64,000 bases of DNA from Pirellula sp. SH-Sr6A (lineage in GTDB: Bacteria > Planctomycetota > Planctomycetia > Pirellulales > Pirellulaceae). The notes beneath the pieces are model-generated. The model worked only from the letters and a program-made list of their open reading frames with translations, was not told the DNA's origin and did not search any database. The DNA lies in contig NZ_CP011272.1 of NCBI RefSeq assembly GCF_001610875.1, forward strand, positions 4,755,988 through 4,819,987, read 5' to 3'. Position 1 is the stretch's first letter. Each line of letters begins with the position of its first letter. The position numbers were made by a program, and so were the translations under genes. Positions 13,755-17,508 of the stretch are shown one piece after another.

Positions 13755-15680
13755 TCAAACATCGATCTCGAACGCACCATCGAGCGTGGCGTGGAGATGG
13801 GCGCCGTCGAGCTTCCAAGATTCGAGCGTGGGCCAAACATCCGCTTCAGGGTTTTCGCAAAAAATGTGACCACCTGCCGGTACGGCGTGCAACACGGATC
13901 GCAATCCCGATCGATGCTCTTCGAAGAACTTGCCTCGCAAAGCCCCGTGCGGTAACAGCAGCCAGTCTAGCCTGGGAGCGCATGCCCCACAGGTCGCGGA
14001 GGTCACCAAATCGACATGGATCACAATGGCACTGAGAATCGGATTGCATAATAACGCAATCACTCGCGACGCATCGGTCTCGCACCCGGTGTCCACAATC
14101 CTGCCGTTGAATCCAGCCTGTCCGTGGCTCACCATCCCAAAGTCGATATTGCGAAGCCTCAACTGCTCCGACAACTGTTCGACCAAGCTATCGGAATCAA
14201 GGCACTTGGCAACTCCGATCAAACGAATCCGACTAGGACTATCGTTCGGAAAGAGCATATCGACAATCGCATCTCCGACCTTTTGGGGTTTCCCAAAAAG
14301 AGGGGAAACGTGCGGAGAGAGCGACGGTCCCGCATTGACTTCCACGACCGCCCCTCGCTGCGACTCAAGCGGTTCCGAAATGTCGGTCGCGAGGATATCC
14401 AGTCCAGCGATATCGAGCCCCACGACGCGGGCTGCGAGCACGGCTTGTTCGGCTAAATCCGGATGCACCTCTTCGGTGCAGTCGGTTGTCAAGTCGCCTG
14501 TTCGACGTACGAGAACTTCTTGACCGGGCAAGGGAATACTGTGGACTTCCAGCGATTGCTTCTTTAATTCGATAATGGCCCCTGCATCGAGTTTCACTAC
14601 GCCGAGAGGATCGGTGTAGGCCTCACCGCGACGTGGATCTTGATTGAGAAGCGCGACCAATTCTTCCACGGTGCTTCTACCGTCTCCGATGACGATTTCC
14701 GAATGCCCGCGCGCTGCCGCGACCATGCGGTTCCCGACGACCAGCAGTCGATGGTGGTATCCTCGCGCGAATTGCTCGACCATGACTTCATCGGACTGAC
14801 CATCTTGGACGGCCCAATCGTAGGCCTTCAAGATCTCATCGCGGGTCGATAGCTCGATCGAGATTCCTCGCTGATGGTTTGCATTGACCGGTTTGACCAC
14901 GACAGGGAAGCCAATCTCCTGGGCGGCGGTCCAAGCGTCTTCGGCATCGCGGACTTGCCGACCATGCGGGACCGATACTCCGACCTGCCGCAATAGTCTC
15001 TTGGTCAAGTCTTTATCGCTCGCGATGGCTTCCGCGATGGCGCTGGTAGCATCGGTTTCTGCCGTCCAAATGCGACGTTGGTATTTTCCTTCTCCTAATT
15101 GCACGAGCGACCCTCGATTGAGTCGTGTGTAAGGGATGGAGCGTCGCCGCGCGGCGCGAAGGATCGCGCGCGAACTAGGGCCCAGGCGCACATCGTCGGC
15201 GTAATCGAACAATTCCCGGAACTTCGCAGGGATGGAAAAATTCTCCCCGCGACGATAGCTGCCGATCATTTCCACGGCCAGTTCGAAGCATCGCTCGCTG
15301 AGCTCCTGCTCTTCCATCTCCATGGGAAGGACCACGGAATCTTCACCGGAATCGATTTGAGCCTGAAGATCCAATCGTTCTCGTGTGTCTTGGGTAGGAA
15401 CACCCGCCATGGCCGAGAACCAACGAGCACATGCCAGCAATAAGTCCCCAGCGAATGAGGAGGTCGCAACCGCACGCGCTCGCAATTCCGCATTGGCAAC
15501 GCTTTGTGGGTGGGTCGTGGTGTAGCTTTTGCTTTCGAGAAATGCCAACAGGTCTGCGGAGAGAGCAGGACCTATCGACAACGTTTCCGCCGCTTGCGAT
15601 GCAGGGTAGTGAAGCTCCAGCATCGGAGCGGGCGACCACCGATTGGGGCCGATCAACGTGACGAAGCGGAGGTCTGACAT
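13755..15680 (-). CDS. Cyanophycin-synthetase-like ATP-grasp ligase with degenerate Mur domain
   Basis: A 641-aa protein with the layout of the first two-thirds of CphA. It has an N-terminal domain (residues 1-160), then an ATP-grasp ligase (about 165-480) with TLxxLG-type linker, FPVVVKPVNANHQRG (258-272) and the metal-site segment VVEVNAGPSLSPHVSPL (445-461). In CphA a Mur-ligase domain of about 400 aa with P-loop GTNGKTT follows. Here only about 155 residues remain, and the P-loop position reads IRLIGVAKCLDSDS. The segment SRVIALLCNPILSAIVIHVD aligns by eye with the CphA strand that precedes ARGGILR. One ligase site thus seems live and the other dead. The product could be a short peptide or amino-acid conjugate instead of cyanophycin. 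Confidence 0.75.
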   Translation of the reverse strand: MSDLRFVTLIGPNRWSPAPMLELHYPASQAAETLSIGPALSADLLAFLESKSYTTTHPQSVANAELRARAVATSSFAGDLLLACARWFSAMAGVPTQDTRERLDLQAQIDSGEDSVVLPMEMEEQELSERCFELAVEMIGSYRRGENFSIPAKFRELFDYADDVRLGPSSRAILRAARRRSIPYTRLNRGSLVQLGEGKYQRRIWTAETDATSAIAEAIASDKDLTKRLLRQVGVSVPHGRQVRDAEDAWTAAQEIGFPVVVKPVNANHQRGISIELSTRDEILKAYDWAVQDGQSDEVMVEQFARGYHHRLLVVGNRMVAAARGHSEIVIGDGRSTVEELVALLNQDPRRGEAYTDPLGVVKLDAGAIIELKKQSLEVHSIPLPGQEVLVRRTGDLTTDCTEEVHPDLAEQAVLAARVVGLDIAGLDILATDISEPLESQRGAVVEVNAGPSLSPHVSPLFGKPQKVGDAIVDMLFPNDSPSRIRLIGVAKCLDSDSLVEQLSEQLRLRNIDFGMVSHGQAGFNGRIVDTGCETDASRVIALLCNPILSAIVIHVDLVTSATCGACAPRLDWLLLPHGALRGKFFEEHRSGLRSVLHAVPAGGHIFCENPEADVWPTLESWKLDGAHLHATLDGAFEIDV

Positions 15681-15837: not shown

Positions 15838-17508
15838 CTAATTCTGCTTGGGTCGGAAGGTGGGTTGAAATCCATCCGAGACGCGCTCGCTCGAGATGAA
15901 TTTTAGACGGGAACTATCGACTTCTACCGGCCGAGAACGCCCGGTTCGGCCAGACGCTTCGTTGGCAGCAACGGGATCATCCGAATCGAGCAAATTCGGA
16001 TTCCATCGGGGCTTCACATCGATTCCTGCGGGAGATTCCAAAGGAACGATTCTCGCCTGAGAGGGATCGGAATTGGTGGTCGGTCTCAAAGTGGGAGGAA
16101 CCGGAACTGGCCCTCGATTCATGAGGGCTTGATCGATCCAACTTTCCGGTTGCGGCGAAGGATTGCGAGGGAGCATCCCACCCGAGAGTTGGTTGAGGGT
16201 CGGAGAAACCTCGGTTGCGGGTCGTTGCACCGAAGCCGAACCGTTCAAACTCGGTTGTCGCGTCGCTTCGGGGTCTCCCGCTGGTAGACCCGACGGGGGA
16301 AGAATACTCGAACCAGGAAGCCCGCTCGCAGGAGGCAGAGCAGTCGACGGGTTGGAGGGAACCGAAGGGTACAAGGGGGCAGGTGCTGTTGGAAGCACCG
16401 AATTGGCTCCATTCCCTGTTGGAGCGCTGTAGGTAGGTGCTCCGTAGGGAACGACCGACGCCGCACCAGGAATGCTCGGGGCAACCCCGGATAGAGCTGG
16501 ACTGCTGTAATTCGGTGGGGGGATCGTCGTAGCCGCCGAGCCAGGCAAAGGGCAAACGCCATTGGCGCACGGACTCATGCTATTCGCGGAAGGTGCATAA
16601 TAGGAACTGGTCGCTGGGCTCGCGTAAGCTGGAACATTCGCGGCCGCAGGAACGACTGTCGAAACAGGTGGAAGCACCGAAGCACCATAGCCGACAGTGG
16701 ACGGTGAAACAGTGGACGGTAAAGCCGACGGATAGGAACTCGAGATGGTCGTTCCCAGCGGATAGGCGGTGGTGGCCGGATAACTCGAGTTCGAGGGGTA
16801 AGGGACCGTGGGAACATTGGATACCACCGCCGCAGGCATCAGCGCCGTAACAGGCTGAACGGCGGAGGTTTGATACGTCGTCGCGGGCAAAGAACTGGCT
16901 GGCATTCCCATCGAGACTCCCGAAGTACCCAATGAAGCGCTTCCAACCGGTGCCCCGGCGTAAGGGATCTGTTGGTAACCTGGATAAGATGGAGGATACG
17001 ATGCACTGGTAGCCAACCCCGCAGGGTAGTATCCGGGACCCGTGATCCCTGGCCAACGATTCGCCTGCAACCCAACTTCACCCAGCAAGGGTCGGGGCGA
17101 GGCCAAAGGAACGCGTTGAGCTTGATACTGCACCGAAGTGCAAGGCTGAAGGCTGGTAACGGTGGTACCCGTCCTCGGATCAAAGCTGGTCACTGGACGA
17201 TAGTAAGTGACCGGCGTGGCATTCCATGCCGTATCGTAGGTGGCAGTGGGCAAATAACCTGCAACAGTCTGCGGCACCCCAAACGGTACAGACGCCAATC
17301 CGGTGGCAGAAGGTGGCTGAGTCGCGTAGGGACCATAATTCGCTACAACGGCCGCATAGTTCGCAGTGACGGGAACGGGACCGATCGGGTAGGCAGGTCG
17401 ATTGCGATTCAGAATCGCGTCCATCCAAGGCCCTGCGTGAGCAGACTGCGCCATCGTTGCAAACGAGAGGCAGCTCATGGCGATCCAGCTGGATAAATGC
17501 GTACGCAT
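15838..17508 (-). CDS. Secreted Pro/Ser/Ala/Tyr-rich low-complexity protein
   Basis: A 556-aa protein with a plausible signal peptide (MRTHLSSWIAMSCLSFATMAQSAHA, cleavage before GPWMD). A short ordered-looking part (residues about 25-170) includes TYYRPVTSFDPRTGTTVTSL. The remainder is dominated by Pro, Ser, Tyr, Gly, Ala and Thr, with many short repeats such as SYP, PSAL and GLPGS. Two Cys (CANGVCPLPG, about residue 310) stand out. I recognise no catalytic domain. Such proteins are frequent in planctomycetes and could be extracellular or cell-wall components. It is transcribed away from the DUF72 gene. Function is unknown. Confidence 0.7.
   Translation of the reverse strand: MRTHLSSWIAMSCLSFATMAQSAHAGPWMDAILNRNRPAYPIGPVPVTANYAAVVANYGPYATQPPSATGLASVPFGVPQTVAGYLPTATYDTAWNATPVTYYRPVTSFDPRTGTTVTSLQPCTSVQYQAQRVPLASPRPLLGEVGLQANRWPGITGPGYYPAGLATSASYPPSYPGYQQIPYAGAPVGSASLGTSGVSMGMPASSLPATTYQTSAVQPVTALMPAAVVSNVPTVPYPSNSSYPATTAYPLGTTISSSYPSALPSTVSPSTVGYGASVLPPVSTVVPAAANVPAYASPATSSYYAPSANSMSPCANGVCPLPGSAATTIPPPNYSSPALSGVAPSIPGAASVVPYGAPTYSAPTGNGANSVLPTAPAPLYPSVPSNPSTALPPASGLPGSSILPPSGLPAGDPEATRQPSLNGSASVQRPATEVSPTLNQLSGGMLPRNPSPQPESWIDQALMNRGPVPVPPTLRPTTNSDPSQARIVPLESPAGIDVKPRWNPNLLDSDDPVAANEASGRTGRSRPVEVDSSRLKFISSERVSDGFQPTFRPKQN

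Follow-up and report, generated by a model that had tools for sequence, protein, structure and literature searches.

The window analysed here is a 64,000-nucleotide stretch of the Pirellula sp. SH-Sr6A genome. Its reverse strand carries an open reading frame at 13755-15680 that starts with ATG and encodes 641 amino acids without internal stops. This gene, the domains and sites of its product, and the upstream neighbour are arranged as follows:

13755..15680 (-): whole coding sequence with stop of a 641-aa one-site cyanophycin-synthetase-like ligase (open frame, profile matches and orthologues)
15216..15680 (-): worn N domain, residues 1-155 (7/155 residues invariant in 13 orthologues; PF18921 unmatched)
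15432..15446 (-): lost HxxEH primer-making site, residues 79-83 reading DLLLA (alignment; motif as given in the part of PMC9262961 used here)
14241..15215 (-): ATP-grasp (G) domain, residues 156-480, with retained catalytic core (K223, K263, E302, R311, D428, E447 and N449 identical in 13/13)
14706..14708 (-): G325, at the position of TeCphA1 R323, a β-carboxylate contact of the incoming Asp (site table)
14481..14507 (-): shortened acceptor loop, residues 392-400 (RRTGDLTTD), N394 being replaced by D396 and S396 by T398, with five residues deleted (alignment; loop role as given in the part of PMC9427784 used here)
14316..14318 (-): S455, at the position of TeCphA1 R458, the α-carboxylate contact of the incoming Asp (S, T or A in 13/13)
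13758..14240 (-): Mur (M) domain remnant, residues 481-641 (1/161 residues invariant; Mur Pfam models unmatched)
14190..14216 (-): GVAKCLDSD, residues 489-497, standing where the Mur P-loop would be (alignment)
15838..17508 (-): upstream co-directional 556-aa Pro/Ser/Ala-rich protein, a neighbour probably unrelated to function (adjoins the gene in 7/7 same-genus genomes)

The NCBIfam cyanophycin synthetase model NF010623 matched residues 4-555 of the window protein with 511.6 bits and the NCBIfam model TIGR02068 matched residues 120-539 with 384.2 bits, both far under their cut-offs of 877 and 850, respectively. Pfam matches were confined to ATP-grasp models; Mur_ligase_M, Mur_ligase_C and the Cyanophycin_syn N-terminal model were unmatched in the window protein and all matched in the CphA1 of the same genome. 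This complete CphA1 (893 aa, C1:2328323-2331004), the ordinary synthetase of the nitrogen-storage polymer cyanophycin, which includes N-terminal, ATP-grasp, Mur middle and Mur C-terminal domains, is the second full-length CphA that the original prediction had proposed to look for. Compared to roughly 420 residues in this CphA1, the part following the ATP-grasp domain of the window protein comprises 161 residues (481-641), and GVAKCLDSD (489-497) aligns with SVTGVNGKT of the own-genome CphA1. The shortening of the Mur half and the replacement of its P-loop, both of which had been read from the sequence beforehand, were affirmed by these comparisons, the P-loop being lost in 13/13 orthologues. 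A search of the whole genome with Mur_ligase_M detected three places, none of them in the window, and the adjoining gene on the opposite strand ends 18 bases past the stop of the short gene. This indicates that no missing Mur domain lies nearby.

Orthologues of the short type were identified in 13/149 genomes of the same family (loci L004-L016), comprising all seven of the window's genus in the set and six of other genera. Their open frames, 606-879 aa in length, contain no internal stops. Invariant residues amounted to 131/325 in the G domain, 7/155 in the N domain and 1/161 in the Mur remnant. Pairwise ω could be computed for 8/18 estimates from six pairs, the other ten being saturated. The G domain gave 0.042 and 0.047 (two of six pairs computable), and the computable values ranged from 0.157 to 0.239 for the Mur remnant and from 0.186 to 0.303 for the N domain. 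The short gene is under purifying selection, strongest in the G domain. The suggestion that the Mur remnant acts as a specific binding module found no support, given its single invariant residue and the spread of open-frame lengths, and the remnant is probably a scaffold. Truncation and a lost motif, taken alone, are what a sequencing artefact, a frameshift or a decaying pseudogene would leave behind. We rejected this explanation, to which we give practically no credence, on the grounds of the 13 stop-free orthologues in separate assemblies, the low ω where computable and the absence of Mur_ligase_M from the window; a frameshift or assembly error restoring a Mur domain, named beforehand as the outcome that would overturn the prediction, was not found. 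The window gene is a real one-site relative of CphA.

All 13 short-gene genomes fall within the 18/149 having CphA1-type genes (E up to 1e-60), a nesting with a hypergeometric p of 5e-15 under independence and with kinship ignored. In three of these 18 genomes, all of them carriers of the short gene, the CphA1-type gene is split or fragmentary: G040 and G057 show a split pair only, and G074 matched with an open frame of 401 aa. At the level of the phylum, matches were obtained in 47/392 genomes; 28 new loci were fetched, and within the part of the matches covered by sequence-level reading the short type was identified only in G000 and G040, both of the window's family. The other phylum matches had open frames of at least 762 aa, the split gene of G040 (724-aa frame) aside. 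A search of viral contigs with P0001 detected no relatives. Matches were found in 144 plasmid records, and among the matches listed (60) these were cphA and other ATP-grasp genes, several of them unannotated.

To compare the G site residue by residue, we aligned 13 short proteins, 7 CphA2, 11 cyanobacterial CphA1, 22 phylum CphA1-type proteins (one cut by a contig end and three being sister proteins of family f4) and 6 odd proteins. In TeCphA1, according to the part of PMC9427784 used here, the β-carboxylate of the incoming Asp is held by N394 and R323 and its α-carboxylate by R458, with space beside S396; the primer end is held by R309 and E215, and replacing N394, R323 or R458 by alanine impairs the enzyme. 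Ordinary CphA1 proteins carried R323, N394, S396, G398, G399 and R458 in 30/30 cases. In all short proteins these six positions read G, D, T or I, a gap, a gap, and S, T or A, respectively. The window protein has G, D and S at R323, N394 and R458, and none of the 13 short proteins keeps any of these three residues. Position 323 is G in 13/13 short and 3/3 sister proteins, and R in 30/30 CphA1 and 7/7 CphA2.

K220, K261, E300, R309, D431, E450 and N452 are conserved in 13/13 short proteins. We take K223, K263, E302, D428, E447 and N449 of the window protein to have the roles assigned to such residues in ATP-grasp enzymes, a set that does not include R311. Core residues kept throughout, together with replaced aspartate contacts, imply that the carboxylate-activating machine is complete and the aspartate holder is not. 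The earlier description of the ATP-grasp half as intact therefore holds for the catalytic residues but not for the aspartate pocket, which has been replaced. Moreover, in the short proteins glycine 265 is changed to A and glycine 268 to Q or A, and these changes count against the explanation that we favour below on sequence grounds. In a wider site table, 132 of 136 proteins were scored (four were dropped for gaps), and 102 of the 132 combined a standard G site with an intact P-loop. Only the short proteins (13) and the full-length sister proteins (four) combined R323G with the loop gap. The loop gap also occurs in two M-only plasmid proteins because their G domain is degenerate. The short enzyme thus appears to have kept one of three active sites in remodelled form, and its acceptor is probably something other than free aspartate. 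A product or acceptor different from that of CphA1, as originally predicted, is probable, and the prediction is strengthened by the remodelled aspartate pocket, a feature it had overlooked.

In a midpoint-rooted G-domain tree of 56 proteins, the 13 short proteins formed one clade (100/100) inside the CphA1s of the phylum, sister (100/98) to three full-length proteins of a different family, f4, and the seven CphA2 formed a separate, distant clade on a long branch. The clade of short and sister proteins stood (99/97) when CphA2 were left out and eight plasmid proteins were added. Orthology with CphA2 was rejected by the tree and the site pattern. The sister proteins, full-length CphA with a remodelled G site and intact N and M motifs, each lie beside a normal CphA1:

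L144 7081-9738 (G514): sister full-length CphA
L145 9312-12005 (G428): sister full-length CphA
L146 6311-8959 (G362): sister full-length CphA

The full-length f4 paralogues (G514, G428, G466 and G362) resemble the short proteins in R323G, G265A, the five-residue deletion and the loss of R458, which is L in the three aligned proteins (three of four in the tree). Unlike the short proteins, all four retain N394 and the Mur P-loop; S396 and HxxEH are retained as well in the three aligned proteins, each of which has a normal CphA1 as tandem neighbour. The G514 protein scored above the cyanophycin synthetase cut-offs. In G362, the sister/CphA1 pair is flanked by a cyanophycin-associated ABC transporter (1018 bits, cut-off 880) and by a DUF1854 protein (141 bits, just below the cut-off of 150). 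The best explanation of the tree and site data is that the short gene arose as a duplicate of the CphA1 native to the phylum. In the simplest order of events, the duplicate would first have had its G site remodelled and only afterwards have lost its N and M sites.

A single-site enzyme of similar size is known from cyanobacteria: CphA2 polymerises β-Asp-Arg with one site, as stated in the part of PMC10206079 used here. The corresponding parts of PMC9427784 and PMC9262961 describe it as devoid of the M P-loop and lid and of the N-site HxxEH motif, respectively, and a second synthetase of Sideroxydans is called CphA2 in the part of PMC5178258 used here. Since CphA2 makes cyanophycin from β-Asp-Arg with one site according to these partial sources, the original premise that CphA always needs both sites for the polymer is unsupported. 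We obtained seven CphA2 candidates of 636-647 aa from 23 cyanobacterial genomes (24 of 54 loci examined); one of them was compared with solved structures and matched 8fxh at 2.5e-290. The short proteins share with CphA2 (7ta5, 8fxh, 8fxi) the N-G-M plan, a similar length, the lack of P-loop, Mur lid and HxxEH, and the loss of R458 (7/7 CphA2). However, R323, N394, S396 and the GG loop are present in 7/7 CphA2 and in 0/13 short proteins, CphA2 has K at H267, and the short proteins lie outside the CphA2 clade. With CphA2 forming a separate clade that keeps R323, N394 and the loop, these sequence comparisons point to the short proteins as an independently evolved one-site branch, in which CphA2-like working would have arisen at most by convergence. 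No one-site cyanophycin synthetase outside cyanobacteria was named in the titles and abstract openings of the open-licence literature, among the matches listed.

CphA1 proteins (7wae, 7lg5 and the own 893-aa copy) share the G-domain fold, the ATP/Mg residues, S166, H267 and R309 with the window protein and include its nearest solved relatives by sequence; the window protein differs in lacking HxxEH, the Mur P-loop and the C-terminal Mur domain and in its replaced aspartate pocket. A structure prediction, suggested as a check, matched CphA1 7wae over most of its length (Z 34.4, rmsd 4.8, 573 aligned) and CphA2 7ta5 with Z 25.0 (rmsd 5.8, 554 aligned). This AlphaFold model has a mean pLDDT of 74.7, is unreliable at its final residues and in stretches of the N domain, and leans towards CphA1 because its alignment contained the window protein and cyanobacterial CphA1 relatives only. 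The ATP-grasp part of the model matched GshAB 3ln6 with Z 27.2 (rmsd 4.0, 310 aligned). As modelled, the match to CphA2 is no stronger than this, which counts against a CphA2-like reading.

Split forms of CphA also occur in the family. G040 (99% complete) contains adjacent CphA halves at L046 5971-8139(-) and 8146-10506(-), and G057 (84% complete) at L050 1350-4058(+) and 4095-6140(+), the second of the latter being cut by the contig end. In both pairs one half has the N and G sites without the Mur P-loop and the other the Mur P-loop without the N and G sites. The family-genome search (149 genomes) detected no full CphA1 in either genome, which suggests that synthesis may need both chains there. 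Genes for a cyanophycin-associated ABC transporter and DUF1854 adjoin the G040 pair. The two M-only halves grouped with the family's own CphA1s (93/95 in an M-domain tree whose bootstrap is unsettled), and the split therefore looks local. On plasmids of Roseateles and Ruegeria, genes annotated as 'Mur ligase family protein' (L160 7819-9624 and L162 7817-9553) adjoin a complete cphA; their products are M-only CphA relatives with an intact P-loop. A Microvirga ossetica plasmid encodes a CphA-like ATP-grasp region within a protein of 1004 aa that is annotated as CapA family (L159 3476-6490).

The protein encoded upstream at 15838-17508(-) is secreted-looking, carries a conserved YRPVTxFDPxxGTTVTSLQPCTS block and has no Pfam match. 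Of the 149 family genomes, 46 contain relatives of it and 37 of these lack the short gene, which makes it a poor clue to function. A functional link between the two genes was accordingly weakened by the spread of this protein. In G023, one of the 13 carriers, the short gene adjoins genes for a cyanophycin metabolism-associated ABC transporter and DUF1854 (NCBIfam), with CphA1 on the other side.

What the short enzyme does was weighed against these observations. The likeliest activity, as far as the residues tell, would be joining β-Asp-Arg, or another non-aspartate acceptor, to the C-terminus of cyanophycin. With R311 holding a cyanophycin chain, the carboxylate at the C-terminus of this chain would be phosphorylated with ATP and Mg2+ and then attacked by the amine of an acceptor that is not free aspartate. 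The remodelled, opened pocket would most likely take the β-Asp-Arg dipeptide, in which case the enzyme would re-polymerise it in the manner of cyanobacterial CphA2, through convergence rather than shared ancestry. We tentatively prefer this account, a conserved ligase that activates the cyanophycin C-terminus, refuses free Asp and re-polymerises β-Asp-Arg in convergence with CphA2, as possible rather than probable. Catalysis, cyanophycin as donor and β-Asp-Arg as acceptor are what we infer from the residue patterns; β-Asp-Arg is favoured because it is the known substrate of CphA2 and because R458 is lost in CphA2 too. A β-Asp-Arg ligase need not look like the short enzyme, since CphA2 keep R323, N394, S396 and the GG loop (7/7). 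As for the dipeptide supply, the proposed check for cyanophycinase gave five matches to the S51 cyanophycinase family in the own genome, of which two exceed the cut-off; an IaaA-family gene is present as well. An S51 match was found in 10/13 short-gene carriers. The other three, G059, G098 and G023 (99, 87 and 97% complete), matched neither of two cyanophycinase models nor Asparaginase_2, and IadA matches were weak, over the cut-off in 0/18 genomes. This means that no known dipeptide source was found in these three genomes, where other, not yet recognised enzymes could replace the dipeptide-releasing ones.

The same three carriers, without matches to known dipeptide-producing enzymes, speak for an active ligase on the cyanophycin C-terminus with an acceptor other than Asp and β-Asp-Arg (Arg, agmatine, a polyamine or another chain). 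The loss of R323 and R458 and the change of N394 to Asp in 13/13 would suit such an uncharged or cationic acceptor, but its charge is deduced from three positions only, and we regard this alternative as rather unlikely. An acceptor of this kind would cap or modify the polymer, which could block further growth or exo-cleavage. Somewhat less doubtful, if still speculative, is the wider notion of a third kind of cyanophycin ligase, in which an independently evolved one-site G domain passes the activated C-terminus on to an acceptor that is not aspartate and is perhaps uncharged or cationic, yielding end-capped or modified cyanophycin; the full-length tandem sister paralogues would then be an intermediate step. 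Alternatively, the short protein might assemble with CphA1 via the G-domain interface and tune it, as a partner that is non-catalytic or senses ATP. Consistent with this, among the 149 genomes the short gene occurs only alongside CphA1-type genes, and CphA relatives are paired, with one member site-less, in G040, G057 and on the Roseateles and Ruegeria plasmids. However, the ATP, Mg and primer residues, which pseudo-enzymes tend to lose, are present in 13/13, and G is the most constrained part; the N and M domains, as possible contact carriers, are eroded. We consider a partner role unlikely. Still less probable is a peptide or protein ligase outside cyanophycin metabolism, acting for instance on the C-terminus of the upstream 556-aa protein. 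That protein ends in FRP-like motifs, with FRP near the C-terminus in 6/7, and the gene pair is present in 7/7 same-genus genomes. Yet the putative partner has an apparent signal peptide (judged by eye) and the wide distribution given above, the six carriers of other genera lack the pair, and the short gene is nested within CphA1-type genomes.

Under the preferred reading of a cyanophycin C-terminus ligase, the short enzyme is a candidate for new cyanophycin chemistry. As a second origin of a one-site synthetase with a differently remodelled acceptor pocket, it would offer a natural test of the G-site residues that set the acceptor. Normal CphA1, the remodelled full-length paralogue and the one-site enzyme form a stepwise series in living genomes.

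Genes of the AstA (arginine N-succinyltransferase) family were observed beside CphA1 in the window's genome (L049 6972-8006(-)) and, in G136, at a distance of about 4 kb from the short gene (L037 8657-9727(+)). Their positions near CphA1 or the short gene hint at arginine use after cyanophycin breakdown.
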